From: Boudabousia tangfeifanii
GTDB taxonomy: Bacteria > Actinomycetota > Actinomycetes > Actinomycetales > Actinomycetaceae
Assembly (NCBI RefSeq): GCF_001856685.1
Contig: NZ_CP017812.1
Coordinates: forward strand, 248,001-312,000
DNA: 64,000 nt
Reading direction: 5' to 3'
Shown here: piece after piece, positions 2,991 to 51,926 of the stretch
How positions within the stretch are numbered: the first letter of the stretch is position 1
How the letters are laid out: each line of letters begins with the position of its first letter
Program-made: the position numbers and the translations under genes
The notes under the pieces: generated by a model
Told to the model about the DNA's origin: nothing
Databases searched by the model: none
Seen by the model: only the letters and a program-made list of their open reading frames with translations

Positions 2991-4157
2991 GCGAGTATTG
3001 CGCGGCAGCTTCCGCATCGGCAATTCCAGCCGTTTTGCCGCCTTAGTGTAAGTCAAATATCCGCCCACAAAGTAAAGCAGTAGGGCCAAGACCCACTCCA
3101 AATCCTGCAGGCCAGTTTCGCCGGTGTGCACGGTAAAGGCACGGAATTCAGGGCCTTGCGGAATCTCGTTGAAGACGATCTTCCCTTCCACACAAGCATC
3201 CTCATAAGCCTCGTGACCCGGACGGGACGACATTTGCTTCAAGGAGGAAACCCCAGAAATCAGGGGAGAAATTTCTTCCGGGGGAGTGCGGTCATTCATG
3301 CCGCGATTAAACACCTGGTTTTCCAGACGCCCCAAAGGCATGGCTGTTAACACGAAGGGATTAGCTAGGTTAACCCACCAAATGTACTGGTAGTTTTCCT
3401 GCTTCTCGGTCACCTTAATGGCCTGGCAGCGCCAACGATTACGTGGATTATCCTCGCTTGGACCACCCTGATCTACCCGATCATTCATCGGTTTCTTGCC
3501 GGGCACGTCCTCGATCAAACGGTGCGTTTCGTAGGTGTAAGTGATAGCCGAGGCCTTGCCGCCCAAGGTAGTGAGCACGACTGGAGCAAGCACAAGGCTG
3601 AGCACCACCAAGAAAGTAATCGAAGTGGAACTGGCCTGACGCGGCGTCACCGTTGAAAAGTAGACGCCCAGACAGCAAACCACCCACAACACCACCGAGG
3701 CCGTCAGAACCGCCAGAATGTGCGTGAAAAAGCCTAAACCGGACCACCAAGTAGCCACCAGCATGAACGGCAACGCCACCAGGTAGAAGCACATTGCCGC
3801 CACCCAGGCTGCCATAATCTTGCCGAGGACGATCTCCTTCGAAGACAACGGGGTCACCTGCAACACCGCCAAATTCTGGCTCCGCCGATCCCCATTAATC
3901 GCGGTGGCCGACAAAGTCGCCGTCACCAACAAAGTAATCGCCAAAGAGAAAACAAACAGGGCGTCGAAAACAACCACCCAATGCAAAGCATTCTGCTCGG
4001 AGACCCCAAAAAGCGGTTCAATGAAATACCGCAAAGTCATCAGCACCACGAACATAGCTAGTGCCCACAAACCCAGCGACAAACGCCAATTCGTGGCCCG
4101 GACACGCTGACGCAAATCCAGCTTAGCCACCAAGGCCACATTACTAAACTGCATCAT
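2982..4157 (-). CDS. ABC-2 type transporter permease
   Basis: This is the membrane subunit paired with the ATPase that overlaps it by 14 bases. It has an N-terminal membrane helix near residues 28-47, a cluster of four or more hydrophobic segments between about 85 and 210, a long soluble loop (about 220-350) and a final helix near 355-375. The N-terminus (SNVALVAKLDLRQRVRATNW) resembles ABC-2 permeases whose conserved part starts on the cytoplasmic side. GGAGGTGA precedes two adjacent ATGs (4157 and 4154), so the start is uncertain by one codon. The substrate is unknown; export of a lipid, drug or peptide is typical for the family. Confidence 0.8.
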   Translation of the reverse strand: MMQFSNVALVAKLDLRQRVRATNWRLSLGLWALAMFVVLMTLRYFIEPLFGVSEQNALHWVVVFDALFVFSLAITLLVTATLSATAINGDRRSQNLAVLQVTPLSSKEIVLGKIMAAWVAAMCFYLVALPFMLVATWWSGLGFFTHILAVLTASVVLWVVCCLGVYFSTVTPRQASSTSITFLVVLSLVLAPVVLTTLGGKASAITYTYETHRLIEDVPGKKPMNDRVDQGGPSEDNPRNRWRCQAIKVTEKQENYQYIWWVNLANPFVLTAMPLGRLENQVFNRGMNDRTPPEEISPLISGVSSLKQMSSRPGHEAYEDACVEGKIVFNEIPQGPEFRAFTVHTGETGLQDLEWVLALLLYFVGGYLTYTKAAKRLELPMRKLPRNTRVA

Positions 4158-5286
4158 TCACCTCCGGGATAGCTCGTTCTTCTTCTTTGGTTTTTGCTTG
4201 AAAGTCTTGTTCGCGACCGGGCTGTGCCGACATCTCGCTTTGCACAGGTTTTTCCGGCCCCAGATCGCCGGCTACCAGAGTTTCGCCCGTCGCTTCGGTT
4301 CGTGCCGGCAACTCGCCCTCGGCGATCGCCGCACTTTCGATGCGCGAAACAGCACTGTCGCGTTCCGAGCGTAGCGGCAAGGGGTCTTCGGGCTCAAGGC
4401 TGAGGAACTTGCGTTCCAGGCTTGACCCGTCATTAAACAGTTCTGAAATGTTGGCGCCCAACATTTCCATGGTCTGCCGCAACAAAGTGGCATCGTCATC
4501 GGTGGCCAGCATAATCTCGAAGTAGTCGCGTCCACGCTGTTTGCGCACCTGGTAGGGGAGTTCGAACTCCTCGGCCCAGTTGGTGAAAATCTCCGGCTTA
4601 TCAAGGCGCAAAAGCCAAGGGAACAGTTCAGCCTGATCTTCCTCGGGCACAACCACTTGGCCGTGGTTCATAAAAATCGTGTCGTCGCACATTTCCTCAA
4701 GTTCGGAAAGCACATGCGAACTGATCAAAATCGTGATGCCCTCGGCCGCCAGATCCTGCAGGATCCGCTTAAGTTCTAGCCGAGCAATCGGGTCGAGGCC
4801 GTTGGCCGGCTCGTCCAACAACAGCACTCGCGGCTTGCCCATCAGGGAGCGAGCCAAACCAAGGCGCTGCTTCTGCCCGCGCGAAAGCGTTTGGGCGCTA
4901 ACTCGCCGATAGTCTTCCATTTCCACCAGCGCGAGCACATGCGCAATCTGGTGCAAAAGTTCCGAGCCGCGCAAACCATAGGCCTGCCCAAAAGCTTCCA
5001 AGATCTCAAAAACGGTCAGAGATTCCCACACACCGAAGTCGTCAGGCATCCACCCCAACAATTTGCGGGCCGAGGACGGATTCGCCGACATGCTCACGCC
5101 CTCGATCTCAATTTCGCCCTCGTCAGGTGCTAACAAGCCCGACAGTAGTAGCAATAGGGTGGTTTTGCCGGCTCCGTTTGGGCCAACTAGGCCAGTAATT
5201 TGCCCGGAAGAAAGATTTAAGGAGACGCCAGAAACCACGGTTTTGTCCCCGAATGTGCGGGTCAGATTTCTGGCTTTGATACTCAT
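4144..5286 (-). CDS. ABC transporter ATP-binding protein with C-terminal extension
   Basis: This is the energising subunit of the exporter formed with the downstream permease. The nucleotide-binding domain occupies residues 1-220: Walker A GPNGAGKTT, signature LSRGQKQRLGLARSL, Walker B VLLLDEPANGLD, and the switch histidine in ISSHVLSELEE. Residues about 225-380 form an extra region rich in Glu and Ala with no recognised fold. An ABC ATPase of this class is often about 230-310 residues, so the tail is long. The gene starts the operon. Confidence 0.9.
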   Translation of the reverse strand: MSIKARNLTRTFGDKTVVSGVSLNLSSGQITGLVGPNGAGKTTLLLLLSGLLAPDEGEIEIEGVSMSANPSSARKLLGWMPDDFGVWESLTVFEILEAFGQAYGLRGSELLHQIAHVLALVEMEDYRRVSAQTLSRGQKQRLGLARSLMGKPRVLLLDEPANGLDPIARLELKRILQDLAAEGITILISSHVLSELEEMCDDTIFMNHGQVVVPEEDQAELFPWLLRLDKPEIFTNWAEEFELPYQVRKQRGRDYFEIMLATDDDATLLRQTMEMLGANISELFNDGSSLERKFLSLEPEDPLPLRSERDSAVSRIESAAIAEGELPARTEATGETLVAGDLGPEKPVQSEMSAQPGREQDFQAKTKEEERAIPEVNDAV

Positions 5287-47266: not shown

Positions 47267-47722
47267 ATGCAAACTGCAACTAGCGCGCACAACGTTGCTG
47301 CATACATCGTTAAAAAACTTGGATCAGTTACAACGATGAAACTTCAAAAGCTCCTCTACTACTCCCAAGGGTGGTCCTTGGCCTGGGACGAGCAGCCGCT
47401 ATTTACAGAAGAGATTCAGGCTTGGGCGAACGGCCCTGTCGTCTACGACGTGTTCAAGAAGCACCGTGGAGAGTTTAAAGTTTCCAGTTGGCCATCTGGC
47501 AATCCTGAAGAACTCTCCAGCGAACAGCGAGACACTGTTGATGCTGTTCTTGAAGCATACGGCGCTCTGAGTGGGCAGCAGCTTAGCGACAAAACGCATC
47601 ATGAACCCCCTTGGCTCGAAGCGCGAAAGGGTACTCCTATTGGGGCATACTCAGATAATGCATTGAGTTTGGACACCATGCAGGAGTACTTTGGGTCACT
47701 CGACCAGTTAGTCAATAAGTAA
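47267..47722 (+). CDS. Panacea (SocA-like, DUF4065) antitoxin
   Basis: The 151-residue protein is a Panacea-domain antitoxin: VTTMKLQKLLYYSQGWSLAW, LFTEEIQAWANGPVVYDVFK, and a C-terminal SDKTHHEPPWLEARKGTPIG. A strong GGAAGGAGGAG precedes the ATG. It is transcribed against the phage early genes from its own promoter. Panacea proteins neutralise many unrelated toxins, here most likely the product of the next gene. Confidence 0.9.
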   Translation: MQTATSAHNVAAYIVKKLGSVTTMKLQKLLYYSQGWSLAWDEQPLFTEEIQAWANGPVVYDVFKKHRGEFKVSSWPSGNPEELSSEQRDTVDAVLEAYGALSGQQLSDKTHHEPPWLEARKGTPIGAYSDNALSLDTMQEYFGSLDQLVNK

Positions 47723-47725
47723 CTC

Positions 47726-48250
47726 TTGGCTAAGAAAAAGCGACTGCCCAAGCAGTCAGGTAACGTTAATGCGTCCAAAAAAGCAGAGATTAAGGCCCAC
47801 GCTGCTAATGTTGGCCGTCGTGGAAAACATGTTTCTGCAGATGCTCGTAAACCAGTATCCTCCTTGGAAGATACCTTCAAATGGTCTGCAAAAATGTTGG
47901 ATCACGCACATGATGGCAGCTGGAATTGGAAGCTGGCTCCCACGGAACTCCGAGAACTATTTTGCTTCATTGAAGAAATGTCCTGCCTTGCTTGGAAAGA
48001 TATTCTTCAACAGACATCTGGAGGGCATAATAAGCATCATACTCAGAAGACCGACTCCCTTGAAAAGGAAGCACAAGATCGTCTCTACGAGGTAATGTCC
48101 AAAGAAAATGAAGACTTCCCTGAGGAAGTATTCAGATTTAGACTCAACGCAAAAACAAGATTATGGGGAATCCGAACCGGGTCTATCTTCCGTATCTTGT
48201 GGTATGACAGGGACCACGCAGTCTATCGAGTGAAAAAACGACATACCTAA
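47726..48250 (+). CDS. Putative toxin partner of the Panacea antitoxin
   Basis: The 174-residue basic protein follows in the same reading frame, separated only by the stop TAA and one codon; the TTG at 47726 has no clear ribosome binding site, so translation is probably coupled. A Lys-rich N-terminus leads to a C-terminal segment FRFRLNAKTRLWGIRTGSIF-RILWYDRDHAVYRVKK that resembles the end of small RNase-like toxin folds. The family was not recognised with certainty. Confidence 0.65.
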   Translation: MAKKKRLPKQSGNVNASKKAEIKAHAANVGRRGKHVSADARKPVSSLEDTFKWSAKMLDHAHDGSWNWKLAPTELRELFCFIEEMSCLAWKDILQQTSGGHNKHHTQKTDSLEKEAQDRLYEVMSKENEDFPEEVFRFRLNAKTRLWGIRTGSIFRILWYDRDHAVYRVKKRHT

Positions 48251-51129
48251 TCCTTCCGATAGTAGTCACACCCGTAACCATCCGCGTCTAACGGCAACCC
48301 CTCTGCCCAGGAGGGTGCTTGGCACATGGCTGCCGCTACTTCCTCGACCGTCACAGTGTCTTTGGGAATCTCGATGACGATTTCATCGTGGACATGCATG
48401 ACCACTGGCCACCCTTTGGCTTCCACCGTGTGGATCGCGTGGACCAATAAATCTCGGGCGGTGGCTTGGACAATGTTCTCCACAAGCTTGGGTCCGTAGG
48501 TCTCAATCCAGTCCCAACGCTTCGCCGTGTTCTGCCCTTGATACGTGATGACGTCGCGACCGAACCTGCCGGTAGTGATGGTCGCTCCTGGGTATGCCAA
48601 GCGACGCCCTGAGGGTAAACAGCAGAAGAGGATTCCGGCCTTGCGGGTGAAAGTGATGCCATGTGTGCTGGCAGGGCGACCTGTGGTAAGGCAGCGCTGG
48701 GCAGCAGCATCGATGGCCCACCAAAACTCCACGATGGCTGGGTTGGCTTCCCTCCACGCACTCACCAGCCCCGGTAGTTCGTCGGCCTGTAAACCCATGC
48801 GGAGGGCTCCCATGTTTTCTAGCGCGCCGACGGAGCCGCCGTATCCGCAGTTGTGGACGAGGTGTCCCGATACGGTGTAACGGTGATGCTTTCCGGCATT
48901 TCGTATGTCATAAAGTCGAGCCGTGCGCTGATGGTTGGCCAGGCTTTGCGTCGCTCGATCATTGCTTTGCGTGCTTGTTCGATGATTTGCTCGCGACTGT
49001 AACCTTGGGAGAGTTTTCTCGTGACAACTGGCCGGCTGTAGGGCCAGTAGCGGGGTTCGTAACGGGAGAGCACGGTGTTCCTGCGGTTGGCCAGGTTTTC
49101 TTTCCTGGTGACCATGCGTAGGTTTCCCGGCTCGTAATGTCCATTGGTGTCGATCCGATCCAACTCTAACGCTGGGTTGAGCGGCTGAAGATTGTCCATC
49201 ACCCACAAGCCGGCTGCTTGGATGGAGGGGAAACGGAACTCGATGCCCCGTCCGCCATACCTGGCGTAGTTCGGGTCGTTGGGGTTCGTGCACCGTTGTT
49301 TGGCAGCAGTCAAACGTTGATCCAACCACTTGGGCACAATCCTGGGTTTCGAACAAGATTGGCAGCCCTTGGACACGCCACGTTGCAGGTTGTTGAGTTC
49401 GATCCAAGAGATTTTCCCGCACCCCACACACTGGGTGAGTACTCGGCAGTGGTTCCAGTTCTTGGACCAGCGTTTTTCTGGGCTGATGATTTTCACCCAC
49501 CCGTATTGGGTGCCTACCATCTGCGGAGATTGTGAGATGTGCGCCGCTGGTGGCAGCTTGCCCGAATGGTACGGGCTCAGATTGCCCTTCAACCCATACG
49601 AGGTGGTCCGGGGTGGCTGTGAGCCCTTGATAGGTGATGACATGACGTTCTCCTTTGTAAATAACTCCTTCATGGCTAACCCACGCGGTTCCATCCCAGA
49701 CTTTCTGGGCGCGCGTGACTTCTTCGATAGGCACCAGCCCGTGATCAGTAAGCACCAGCTCGCCCTGGGCAATGCAGGCGAGTTCTGCGATCTTCCCCTT
49801 CTGTCGCAAATGAGCGTTGGCCCCGTGTTTCTCGACAGGGATGCCGAACATTTGGGAGGCTGACTGGCAGTAAATATCCCCACCCCGCCCAAACAGGTCG
49901 AGCCGCCAGTTTTCTCCGGCCAGCCAGGCAATCACGCGGGCTTCGATAGCCGAGTAATCGGCAACAATGAACTCACACCCCTCCCGTGGGATAAACGCGG
50001 TCCGGATGAGTTGGCTGAGGACATCTGGTACGGAGTCGTACAGCATTTCCAGTGCGGTCAGGTTGCGGTCTTTGACGAGGGCTCTGGCGGCGTCGAGGTC
50101 GGGTAGGTAGTTGCGCGGCAGGTTTTGCACTTGGATCAACCTGCCTGCCCAGCGTCCGGTTCTGGCGGCCCCGTGGAACTGCATCAACCCCCGCGCCCGT
50201 TGGTCGGTCGGGTTGGCGCTGGTGGTCATAGCCTCGTACTTGCGCACCGAAGACTTTGAGAGCTCAAGCCGCAAGGCAAGTACTTCTTTGACTACCGGGT
50301 CGCTGGTGGAGGTGAGGGTGTCTTGGACTTCTTGTTTACCCATGGTGGCCATGGTGATGCCGCGTTGGTTGGCCCAGTCTTTGAGCTGTAACGGGCTGTT
50401 GGGGTTATCCAAGCCGGTGAGCTGGCTGGAGCGGGCGAGGTTCTTCTCCCGCACCTGCTTATCCAACTCAATCGCCGCACTGGCCAGGTCGAGGTCAAGG
50501 TGGATGCCTCGGTCGTTGATGGTCTGGTCATCCCAGTACTCGCGCCACAACTGCTCAGGCAACGGAAACGGCGAAAGCTTCGCGTGCAGTTCTAGTTCTG
50601 CCTCCACGTCCCTGGCGTTGTAGGTCTTGAACTGCTCCCACTTGTCTGGCGCATGGCCGGGCAGGTTTCTGTTCAGACCGTTGTTGAGAAGGGAGGGATT
50701 GGCTGGAACGGAGAAGAAGCGGATGAGGTCCTTGCCGGTAGCCAGCTTCCCAGACTCTAGTTTGAGTGCTTTGGATACGCCGTCTAGGGAGAGTGGGAGT
50801 CCGAGGGCTGCGGCCCAGACCATGTGACACCGCCAACCCACAGGCTGCAACTGACGCCCCAAATGAGCGGAAAGGCAGGTGCGTTCGAAAGCAGCGTTAA
50901 ACGCCCACTTCGTGATTTCCGGGTCATCAAGTGCGGCCAACACGTCAGCCGGGATGGCCTCGCCTGAGGCGATGTCGATGTTTTGTACTGGTCCTGTGTC
51001 CCAGGAGTAGGACAAGAGCAGGACTTCGAAGGTGGGGTCTTGGGCGTAGCGGTACATGCCCGCCTTACCGAGGTTCACCGTGGAAAATGTTTCGATATCG
51101 AGTATCAAGGAAGTGTGGTTTGTGGTCAT
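48247..51129 (-). CDS. Family A DNA polymerase with intein
   Basis: The 960-residue precursor is the phage replicative polymerase. Residues 5-185 form a 3'-5' exonuclease (LILDIETFS, NARDVEAELELH). The polymerase domain has motif A DYSAIEARVIAWLAG near 391-405, motif B RQKGKIAELA/CGYGG split by the intein at residue 452, and motif C VMHVHDEIVIE near 920. The intein covers 452-760, so the mature enzyme is about 651 residues. The stop overlaps the plus-strand toxin stop. Confidence 0.93.
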   Translation of the reverse strand: MTTNHTSLILDIETFSTVNLGKAGMYRYAQDPTFEVLLLSYSWDTGPVQNIDIASGEAIPADVLAALDDPEITKWAFNAAFERTCLSAHLGRQLQPVGWRCHMVWAAALGLPLSLDGVSKALKLESGKLATGKDLIRFFSVPANPSLLNNGLNRNLPGHAPDKWEQFKTYNARDVEAELELHAKLSPFPLPEQLWREYWDDQTINDRGIHLDLDLASAAIELDKQVREKNLARSSQLTGLDNPNSPLQLKDWANQRGITMATMGKQEVQDTLTSTSDPVVKEVLALRLELSKSSVRKYEAMTTSANPTDQRARGLMQFHGAARTGRWAGRLIQVQNLPRNYLPDLDAARALVKDRNLTALEMLYDSVPDVLSQLIRTAFIPREGCEFIVADYSAIEARVIAWLAGENWRLDLFGRGGDIYCQSASQMFGIPVEKHGANAHLRQKGKIAELACIAQGELVLTDHGLVPIEEVTRAQKVWDGTAWVSHEGVIYKGERHVITYQGLTATPDHLVWVEGQSEPVPFGQAATSGAHLTISADGRHPIRVGENHQPRKTLVQELEPLPSTHPVCGVRENLLDRTQQPATWRVQGLPILFETQDCAQVVGSTFDCCQTTVHEPQRPELRQVWRTGHRVPFPLHPSSRLVGDGQSSAAQPSVRVGSDRHQWTLRAGKPTHGHQERKPGQPQEHRALPLRTPLLALQPASCHEKTLPRLQSRANHRTSTQSNDRATQSLANHQRTARLYDIRNAGKHHRYTVSGHLVHNCGYGGSVGALENMGALRMGLQADELPGLVSAWREANPAIVEFWWAIDAAAQRCLTTGRPASTHGITFTRKAGILFCCLPSGRRLAYPGATITTGRFGRDVITYQGQNTAKRWDWIETYGPKLVENIVQATARDLLVHAIHTVEAKGWPVVMHVHDEIVIEIPKDTVTVEEVAAAMCQAPSWAEGLPLDADGYGCDYYRKD
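48819..49643 (-). CDS. HNH homing endonuclease nested in the intein in another frame
   Basis: This frame is offset from the polymerase frame and encodes a recognisable HNH homing endonuclease: CVGCGKISWIELNNLQRG with CQSC, then RLTAAKQRCTNPNDPNYARY-GGRGIEF, LELDRIDTNGHYEPGNLRMV and TRKENLANRRN. The start at 49643 follows AAAGGAGAACGTC, a strong ribosome binding site; the conserved part begins near an ATG at 49520. The frame ends at 48819, just past the intein border. Whether it is translated separately or is a relic displaced by frameshifts cannot be decided here. Confidence 0.75.
   Translation of the reverse strand: MSSPIKGSQPPRTTSYGLKGNLSPYHSGKLPPAAHISQSPQMVGTQYGWVKIISPEKRWSKNWNHCRVLTQCVGCGKISWIELNNLQRGVSKGCQSCSKPRIVPKWLDQRLTAAKQRCTNPNDPNYARYGGRGIEFRFPSIQAAGLWVMDNLQPLNPALELDRIDTNGHYEPGNLRMVTRKENLANRRNTVLSRYEPRYWPYSRPVVTRKLSQGYSREQIIEQARKAMIERRKAWPTISARLDFMTYEMPESITVTPYRDTSSTTADTAAPSAR
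48850..49776 (-). other. Intein (HINT splicing element) in DNA polymerase motif B
   Basis: The 309-residue intein starts with Cys452 (CIAQGELVLTDHGLVPIEEV, block A), has block B GLTATPDHLVWV, and ends LYDIRNAGKHHRYTVSGHLV-HN (blocks F/G) before extein Cys761. All splicing residues are present: Cys1, the TxxH of block B, the final His-Asn and Cys+1. The stretch between about residues 550 and 735 in this frame is low-complexity and not domain-like, because the same DNA carries the HNH sequence in another frame. Confidence 0.9.
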
Positions 51130-51178
51130 TATTTGGCTCCAAATTTAGAGGCGAAAAAGGAATGTCATGACAGGGCTG

Positions 51179-51838
51179 GTTTGTATGTGGGAATCTGCAT
51201 GCAATATCCGAGCCCTAACAGCACAGGGCCGACATAAGGATTCCTCTATGTCGATAGATGCCGACATACGGTTTTTCGCATGTCGGCCTATCTGCACATC
51301 TATCGACAGGCCGAAACAGCCCAGAAAGTAGAGCGGATGAGGGCTAAAAGGGGTGGAAATATACGGAATATGGCCGGTTTTGAGGGCTTTGGATGCTTGG
51401 TGTGTATGTCGAAATCTGTATGCAATTTGGATGCTGAAAAACATGCGACCCGAAAGAGTGTCGACATATCCCGACAGATACCTACATACGATTTTCCGTA
51501 TGTCGACAGGAGGCGCATACAGATTTTTCGTATGTCGACAGAACCCGCATACTGTCTTTCGACTCTCGCCCTATCTGCCCGCATGTCGATAGCCCCAAAG
51601 CAGGGAAACCCGCATATGTTCAGCCCAGTTTGACCCCGAAACCCCTAGTTTCTTAGGTGTTTTGTGCCTGCCCGGACTGTCGCGGCAGGGCAACATGCGA
51701 AACGGCGTATGTGAATAGGAGCGACATACAGATTGGCGTATGTACCCCCAGGGCACACACTATTTTTCGTATGTCCCTAAAGGGTGCATACGTTTTTCTG
51801 TATGTAGCCAGAGGCGACATATGGTTTTTCGACTGTTG
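51179..51838. repeat. Array of about a dozen dyad repeats; candidate replication origin
   Basis: The 797-base gene-free region between the polymerase and ssDNA-binding genes holds repeats of the form GCATAC-N6-8-GTATGTCG. Examples begin at 51179, 51230, 51260, 51402, 51484, 51513, 51545, 51691, 51721, 51753, 51784 and 51813. The best dyads are ACATACGATTTTCCGTATGT (51484) and GACATACGGTTTTTCGCATG (51262). Spacing is irregular (30-150 bases). Short frames across the region are artefacts of the repeats. Origin iterons or a regulator array are the likely uses. Confidence 0.85.
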
Positions 51839-51926
51839 CCCCAGCCGGGATATGCCGTTGGGGTGTGGAGCGCGAGAGAGGAATGATTCTCACAACGCCC
51901 CACACCACCACAAGCACCGCTACCGA

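Follow-up and report, generated by a model that had tools for sequence, protein, structure and literature searches.

A phage-type DNA polymerase intein with a putative HNH endonuclease gene in an overlapping reading frame

In the usual description, an intein is a splicing protein that has an endonuclease fused inside it. The window analysed here, a stretch of 64,000 nucleotides (nt) from Boudabousia tangfeifanii (contig NZ_CP017812.1, positions 248,001 to 312,000), holds a phage family-A DNA polymerase gene interrupted by an insert which is, in all likelihood, a mobile intein whose homing endonuclease, instead of forming one of its domains, is encoded by a gene of its own that overlaps it in the +1 frame. 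The layout of the two frames, its conservation, the avoidance of stop codons, the start signals, the empty alleles and the scattered presence of the element were all observed by computation. As far as sequence comparison can tell, the two-frame element is real and conserved, and is a variant of endonuclease-bearing inteins not previously described in the literature found.

The insert carries Cys1, a TxxH motif (TPDH at 49614-49603) which we take to be intein block B, YDIRNAGKHHRYTV at 48912-48871, a C-terminal His-Asn (LVHN at 48861-48850) and Cys+1, all in the frame of the host protein (Table 1); judging by these motifs, the intein is presumably of class 1. An earlier note, made from the letters of the window alone, had claimed a complete splicing domain in the polymerase frame, open for 309 codons, and both the open reading frame (ORF) and the motifs bear this out. 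Homologous host proteins without the insert, where the host sequence is continuous across the site, were found in L007, L008, L010/L011 and G001 (labels starting with L denote loci of relatives). In the predicted structure of the intein, the predicted local distance difference test score (pLDDT) is 91-97 at codons 1-90 and 95-96 at codons 291-309, the model being confident over 284-309; the linker scores about 33-50 over codons 101-280 and is disordered at 102-281, apart from a short stretch. The best Foldseek matches of this model are inteins (Npu DnaE, Mtu RecA and gp41-1, probability 1.00, best E 5.9e-3), with no match at E 0.001, and the joined halves are predicted to adopt a HINT-type fold.

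Table 1. Features of the polymerase gene, its intein and the nested HNH gene in the window.
Feature	Position	Strand	Basis
Phage family-A DNA polymerase ORF, 960 codons including the intein	48247..51129	-	Pfam DNA_pol_A 2.5e-21; phrog_17 1.7e-130
Intein, 309 codons, Cys1 (49776) to Asn309 (48850), Cys+1 next	48850..49776	-	Motifs; inteinless alleles; model matches solved inteins
N splicing domain, intein codons 1-95	49492..49776	-	High pLDDT; intein-frame selection
Intein-frame linker, codons 96-283, open, residues unconstrained, under the HNH core	48928..49491	-	Low pLDDT; pN/pS
C splicing domain, codons 284-309	48850..48927	-	High pLDDT; motifs
AAAGGAG, ribosome-binding site (RBS) of the HNH gene, 6-nt spacer to ATG	49650..49656	-	Sequence; similar signal kept in relatives
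Nested putative HNH endonuclease gene, +1 frame, 274 residues, ATG 49643 to TAG 48819	48819..49643	-	ORF; PHROG; offset, stop avoidance, selection

The endonuclease lies outside the reading frame of the intein, at +1, where the earlier note had placed it. This frame carries CVGCGK, CQSC, YGGRGIEF and ELDRIDTNGHYEPGNLRMV, and the ORF matches the PHROG families of HNH endonucleases phrog_374 (4.1e-26) and phrog_3377 (1.2e-20), no HNH family being named by Pfam or NCBIfam. In the separate search with the 309-residue intein frame, which the note had also proposed, a single match below 0.01 was obtained, to an N-domain family of unknown function (4.5e-9). The claim of an own ATG behind AAAGGAG, and of an end just past the intein border, was also confirmed, the stop codon sitting 31 nt beyond that border. 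Among 43 aligned HNH members, residues C72, C75, C94, C97, R163 and N186 are invariant. The HNH model shows pLDDT values mostly of 80-95 over residues 31-250, falling to 67 and 74 in places; residues 1-23 and 257-274 are disordered. A start at Met 49520 (MVG, residue 42) was rejected, as the predicted fold begins upstream of it; the counterpart of this Met is ATT or ATC in some relatives, and most relatives have an ATG with an RBS close to the counterpart position of 49643. When the synonymous HNH codons of this copy were shuffled 1000 times, the intein frame acquired a mean of 5.1 stops and remained free of them in 0.2% of the shuffles; its openness in the window is therefore more than would be expected by chance.

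The same layout was found in relatives, as the earlier note had suggested looking for. A tblastn search of 50,697 phage records identified seven with one place covering at least 80% of the HNH protein, namely six Streptococcus phages (61.0%) and Gardnerella phage vB_Gva_AB1 (55.6%). All seven matches fall inside an annotated DNA polymerase, and the polymerase is matched over 99-100% in one piece. In the four phage records examined (L001-L004), the intein frame is open, the HNH is found at +1 and the annotation names only a DNA polymerase at the site; L003 has a stop in the HNH frame, the intein frame being open. Most of the HNH is gone from the intein of L005, L006 has an intein without HNH, and L007 and L008 have no intein.

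A search with an HNH profile identified 35 viral-contig and 53 genome-contig loci, whose titles include Actinomycetota and Bacillota isolates and metagenome-assembled genomes called Spirochaetaceae and Synergistales, labels which, for the latter kind of genome, may be wrong. The HNH start was present, remnants included, in 89 of 97 sequences examined, and the offset was +1 in 88 of these 89; the sole exception, L073, reads offset 0 and has its N-domain split by a frameshift. The intein frame is free of stops in 87/89, the exceptions being L073 and L028, where the upstream half is replaced. In a search with the intein N-domain (best 80 of 590 loci), with many contigs in common with the previous search, the HNH was found inside the intein in 66 loci, always at +1 and remnants included, while 12 had no HNH match and two had it outside the intein. 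The evidence for the offset comes from these two sets, in which the HNH was located in any frame. The intein region retrieved 2101 polymerases, and a profile search of the best 120 for an in-frame HNH (E up to 1) was negative for all. Among HNH proteins found at E up to 1e-10 (best 120 of 1750), none has a Pfam domain, and lengths of 257 or 270 residues, as predicted from a start near 49643, are frequent.

Dereplication of the 165 delimited inteins left 84 for the analysis of selection on the two frames: in 66 of them a long +1 frame is open, 16 are mini-inteins and 2 are of other kinds. The HNH class of this set is defined by its long open +1 frame, and so cannot alone prove the offset. An HNH codon ending in T, when followed by AAN, AGN or GAN, makes a stop in the intein frame. 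Within the HNH core of the 66 copies, unfiltered for stops, this pattern occurs 0 times in 2852, and T-ending codons are found in 2272 of 6627 other contexts; an earlier count (38/46 copies), restricted to stop-free inteins, is superseded by this one. In 56 distinct free-standing HNH relatives, the stop-making pattern occurs 889 times in 2308, with a mean of 16.0 stops in the equivalent of the intein frame, which is open in none of the 56.

Ratios of nonsynonymous to synonymous differences (pN/pS) were calculated as median Nei-Gojobori proportions on 48 copies. Over codons 97-280, pN/pS is 0.31 for the HNH frame, against 1.37 for the intein frame. The latter has 0.28 at codons 1-46; both frames have 0.56 at codons 47-92; at codons 284-308 the values are 0.41 for the intein frame and 0.70 for the HNH frame. 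Diversity at fourfold sites is nearly the same in the HNH core (0.685) as in the extein (0.708). These values indicate purifying selection on the HNH frame. In the linker, which is read, the residues are nearly free, and all that is maintained is an open frame. Where the HNH gene overlaps the splicing domains, along about 46 codons on the N side and 25 on the C side, constraint acts on both frames. The earlier note had described about 185 codons of the intein frame as junk-like, and had taken the missing stops as a sign of selection on both frames. Openness is indeed kept, the stop-making pattern occurring in none of 2852 cases, but no selection is seen on the residues of this stretch, and constraint on the residues of two frames is limited to the splicing-domain overlaps. 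Codon substitution patterns, with a conserved HNH frame over a drifting but open linker, support the nested independent gene which the note had offered as one possibility, as do the stop avoidance and the start signals described below.

Start signals of the HNH gene are embedded in the codons of the splicing domain. For each of 65 HNH-bearing copies, expected values were obtained by recoding with the copy's own extein codon usage. An HNH-frame ATG is found within a narrow interval of the splicing domain in 59/65 copies (33.1 expected); in 54 it is preceded, at a distance of 4-13 nt, by an RBS at least 4 nt long (20.0 expected). The Glu codon before the ATG is GAG in 46 of 53 copies (24.8 expected) and the Tyr codon is TAT in 51 of 60 (27.6 expected). 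In six copies (that of the window, L014, L015, L018, L048 and L171), the usual ATG is replaced by one about four codons upstream.

Presence of the element is scattered. A second, prophage-type polymerase allele of the same genome (G000:C1:1749053-1751005), 91% and 88% identical, lacks the intein, and two more inteinless alleles (92/87% and 89/88%) are found in the genome of a sister species; within the genus, four genomes were searched, including that of the window, and the polymerase itself is present in two. Among pairs with intein identity of 0.80-0.999, the intein is more alike than the extein in 329/347, by up to 0.19, a count which is biased, since the pairs share loci and were picked by intein identity; the comparison uses aligned extein flanks, ungapped extein identities being unreliable for distant pairs. 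The HNH is broken in L003 and L069 and mostly deleted in L005, L098 and L131, with the intein frame still open, and such losses fit a homing cycle.

In the distant relatives L171, L174, L176 and L180, the +1 layout is kept at 30-45% HNH identity; by eye, their hosts are family-A polymerases, with the insertion in motif B. Distant HNH loci (best 80 of 567) included 17 inteins at +1, some of them on contigs already in the earlier sets, two at +2 and one +1 intein cut by a contig end. The remaining 60 are HNH only, and no other forward frame spans the HNH in any of them; one, L191, lies on the same contig as L028, where the intein has lost its N half. A search starting from the +2 pair (best 80 of 523 loci) identified 10 polymerase inteins with the HNH at +2 (L261-L270), the starting pair counted. 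Nine have a full HNH and no stop in the intein frame, where shuffling predicts 2.8-6.9; in L269, part of the HNH is deleted and the intein frame is kept. These elements probably form a class of dual-frame inteins of phage family-A polymerases, which encode splicing and homing as two proteins in two overlapping frames, span bacterial phyla, carry the HNH start signals in splicing-domain codons, and putatively arose at least twice, in the +1 and +2 layouts.

Some loci showed further peculiarities. A second intein-like N-domain is found elsewhere in the polymerases of L051 (1884-2108) and L088 (2982-3236); the N and C parts of the latter are in different frames, and no C part was seen in the former. 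In L028/L191, the N half of the polymerase and the intein N-domain are replaced, and the HNH frame is fused in frame to an upstream ORF resembling, by eye, a sigma factor. In L293, another forward frame (256 residues) is open across the HNH (3962-4477), without a recognised intein domain.

Splicing, translation of the HNH frame, cutting and homing would proceed as follows. Reading of the mRNA in the polymerase frame would produce a precursor containing the intein, made of two splicing halves and an unstructured linker of about 185 residues, which would excise itself. From the same mRNA, ribosomes initiating at the internal RBS and ATG would make a second product, a free-standing HNH endonuclease carrying two CxxC pairs; this would cut inteinless polymerase alleles, and repair would copy the intein into them. 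Over the HNH core the intein frame would need only to stay open, so that the two functions could evolve nearly separately.

Several observations weigh against a separately translated homing endonuclease. Assignment as a nuclease follows from PHROG families and motifs: against PDB structures, the HNH model has no Foldseek match at E 0.001 or better, and a PDB profile search returned only ribosomal S27 matches (0.12-0.45). The copies are mutually related, so that the counts given above are not independent events. No ATG is found in 6/65 copies (L025, L046, L070, L088, L173 and L176). Start signals are also enriched in mini-inteins without HNH, where 8 of the 15 scored have ATG plus RBS (3.5 expected; two further mini-inteins could not be scored) and 12 of 13 have TAT (6.5 expected); part of the start signal may therefore reflect ancestry or another constraint. 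The contrast between HNH-bearing copies and mini-inteins is modest (P = 0.034; 0.086 for ATG alone), and the use of mini-inteins as a clean negative control was dropped, their enrichment being perhaps due to some of them being HNH deletions (L098, L142).

Only one mismatch in the 27 nt preceding the insertion point, and none in the 26 nt following it, sets the empty allele of the same genome apart, yet the intein has not invaded it. This would be accounted for if the HNH protein were translated but no longer used for homing, or had some other role. We consider this improbable, given the scattered presence, the HNH-deletion derivatives and, with the bias noted, the greater likeness of inteins than of exteins; an empty site would equally result from silence in the lysogen or from recent arrival of the element.

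The HNH protein could be made without a start of its own, by programmed ribosomal frameshifting out of the intein frame, as the two frames overlap over the N splicing domain and the usual ATG is missing from the six copies listed. In many copies, however, the +1 frame is closed by a stop just ahead of the ATG, 38-40 codons upstream of the conserved MVG, so that the shift would need to fall within a short stretch; with RBS and ATG enriched as well, there is only a slim chance that this route is used.

To our knowledge, an out-of-frame endonuclease is unusual among described inteins, and the earlier note had considered a frameshifted relic, which, like a sequencing error, would be an in-frame HNH intein with indels in this copy. 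Endonucleases are treated as nested domains of inteins in passages of PMC6801210. A relic confined to this copy is excluded, because many distant copies show the offset (+1 in 88/89 and 66/66), the length of 309 codons and an intein frame free of stops, and no relative with an in-frame endonuclease was found among those examined, including the best 120 of 2101 polymerases; with the HNH frame conserved, relic or error is a very improbable origin for the layout, and is refuted for the family. Removal of the insert as an RNA intron, suggested by the intron-encoded HNH genes out of frame with exons said to be common in phages, has next to no likelihood, in view of the splicing motifs, the confident intein-like model and the insert frame kept open; an Rfam search of window positions 48000-51400 (E up to 1) also gave no match.

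A separately encoded overlapping gene is thus the preferred reading, and it can be compared with known systems. Dassa et al. 2009 reportedly described 'fractured genes', split inteins with a separate endonuclease gene; there too splicing and endonuclease are said to be separate proteins, but the host gene is split, whereas here it is one uninterrupted frame. The HNH belongs to the same sequence family as phage proteins of PHROG 374 and 3377, free-standing relatives included, and differs from the free-standing ones in lying within an intein, where a second frame has to remain open. Inteins with a fused endonuclease, as presented in PMC6801210, also sit in replication genes, with the endonuclease between the N and C splicing halves; here it is in another frame, with its own start and stop, outside the intein polypeptide. 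The closest case is the ShiLan insertion in DNA methylases of actinobacteriophages, an insert open in the host frame, with an out-of-frame HNH and scattered presence; it has no splicing domain and no recognised RBS, and is predicted by its authors to stay in the methylase (PMC11855218). The out-of-frame HNH, the open host frame and the scattered presence are shared by the polymerase intein, in which, however, both splicing halves are complete and an RBS is present, and which belongs to a far wider family; L293, mentioned above, is perhaps ShiLan-like. An out-of-frame HNH is recorded for one more phage methylase (PMC12613952). The portions available of PMC6293099, PMC10410586, PMC6801210 and PMC10448857 mention no out-of-frame endonuclease within an intein. 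In open-access full text, ShiLan was the sole close precedent; the subscription literature is mostly uncovered, so that absence from print is not established.

That distantly related phages have kept both frames intact suggests a possible division of labour, with one protein for splicing and another for spreading the element. A widespread group would then divide splicing and endonuclease by reading frame, removing their structural coupling, and the endonuclease could decay or be deleted in frame without harm to the polymerase. It is also hidden from annotation, and surveys of inteins based on the host frame alone will miss such endonucleases. The group is a natural test case for gene overlaps where selection on one of the frames acts chiefly to keep it open.

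Two features of the neighbourhood were recorded. Between the polymerase and an Enc34-type single-stranded DNA-binding gene, nine copies of a 27-nt palindrome-like repeat, of CGACATACG..TTTTTCG.ATGTCG type, are found at 51230-51841, spaced 31-32 nt within clusters; they are a candidate iteron or operator array. Convergent to the end of the polymerase, a gene with a SocA/Panacea antitoxin domain (47267-47722, plus strand) adjoins an ORF of 174 residues without Pfam match (47726-48250, plus strand), and the two look like a toxin-antitoxin pair.

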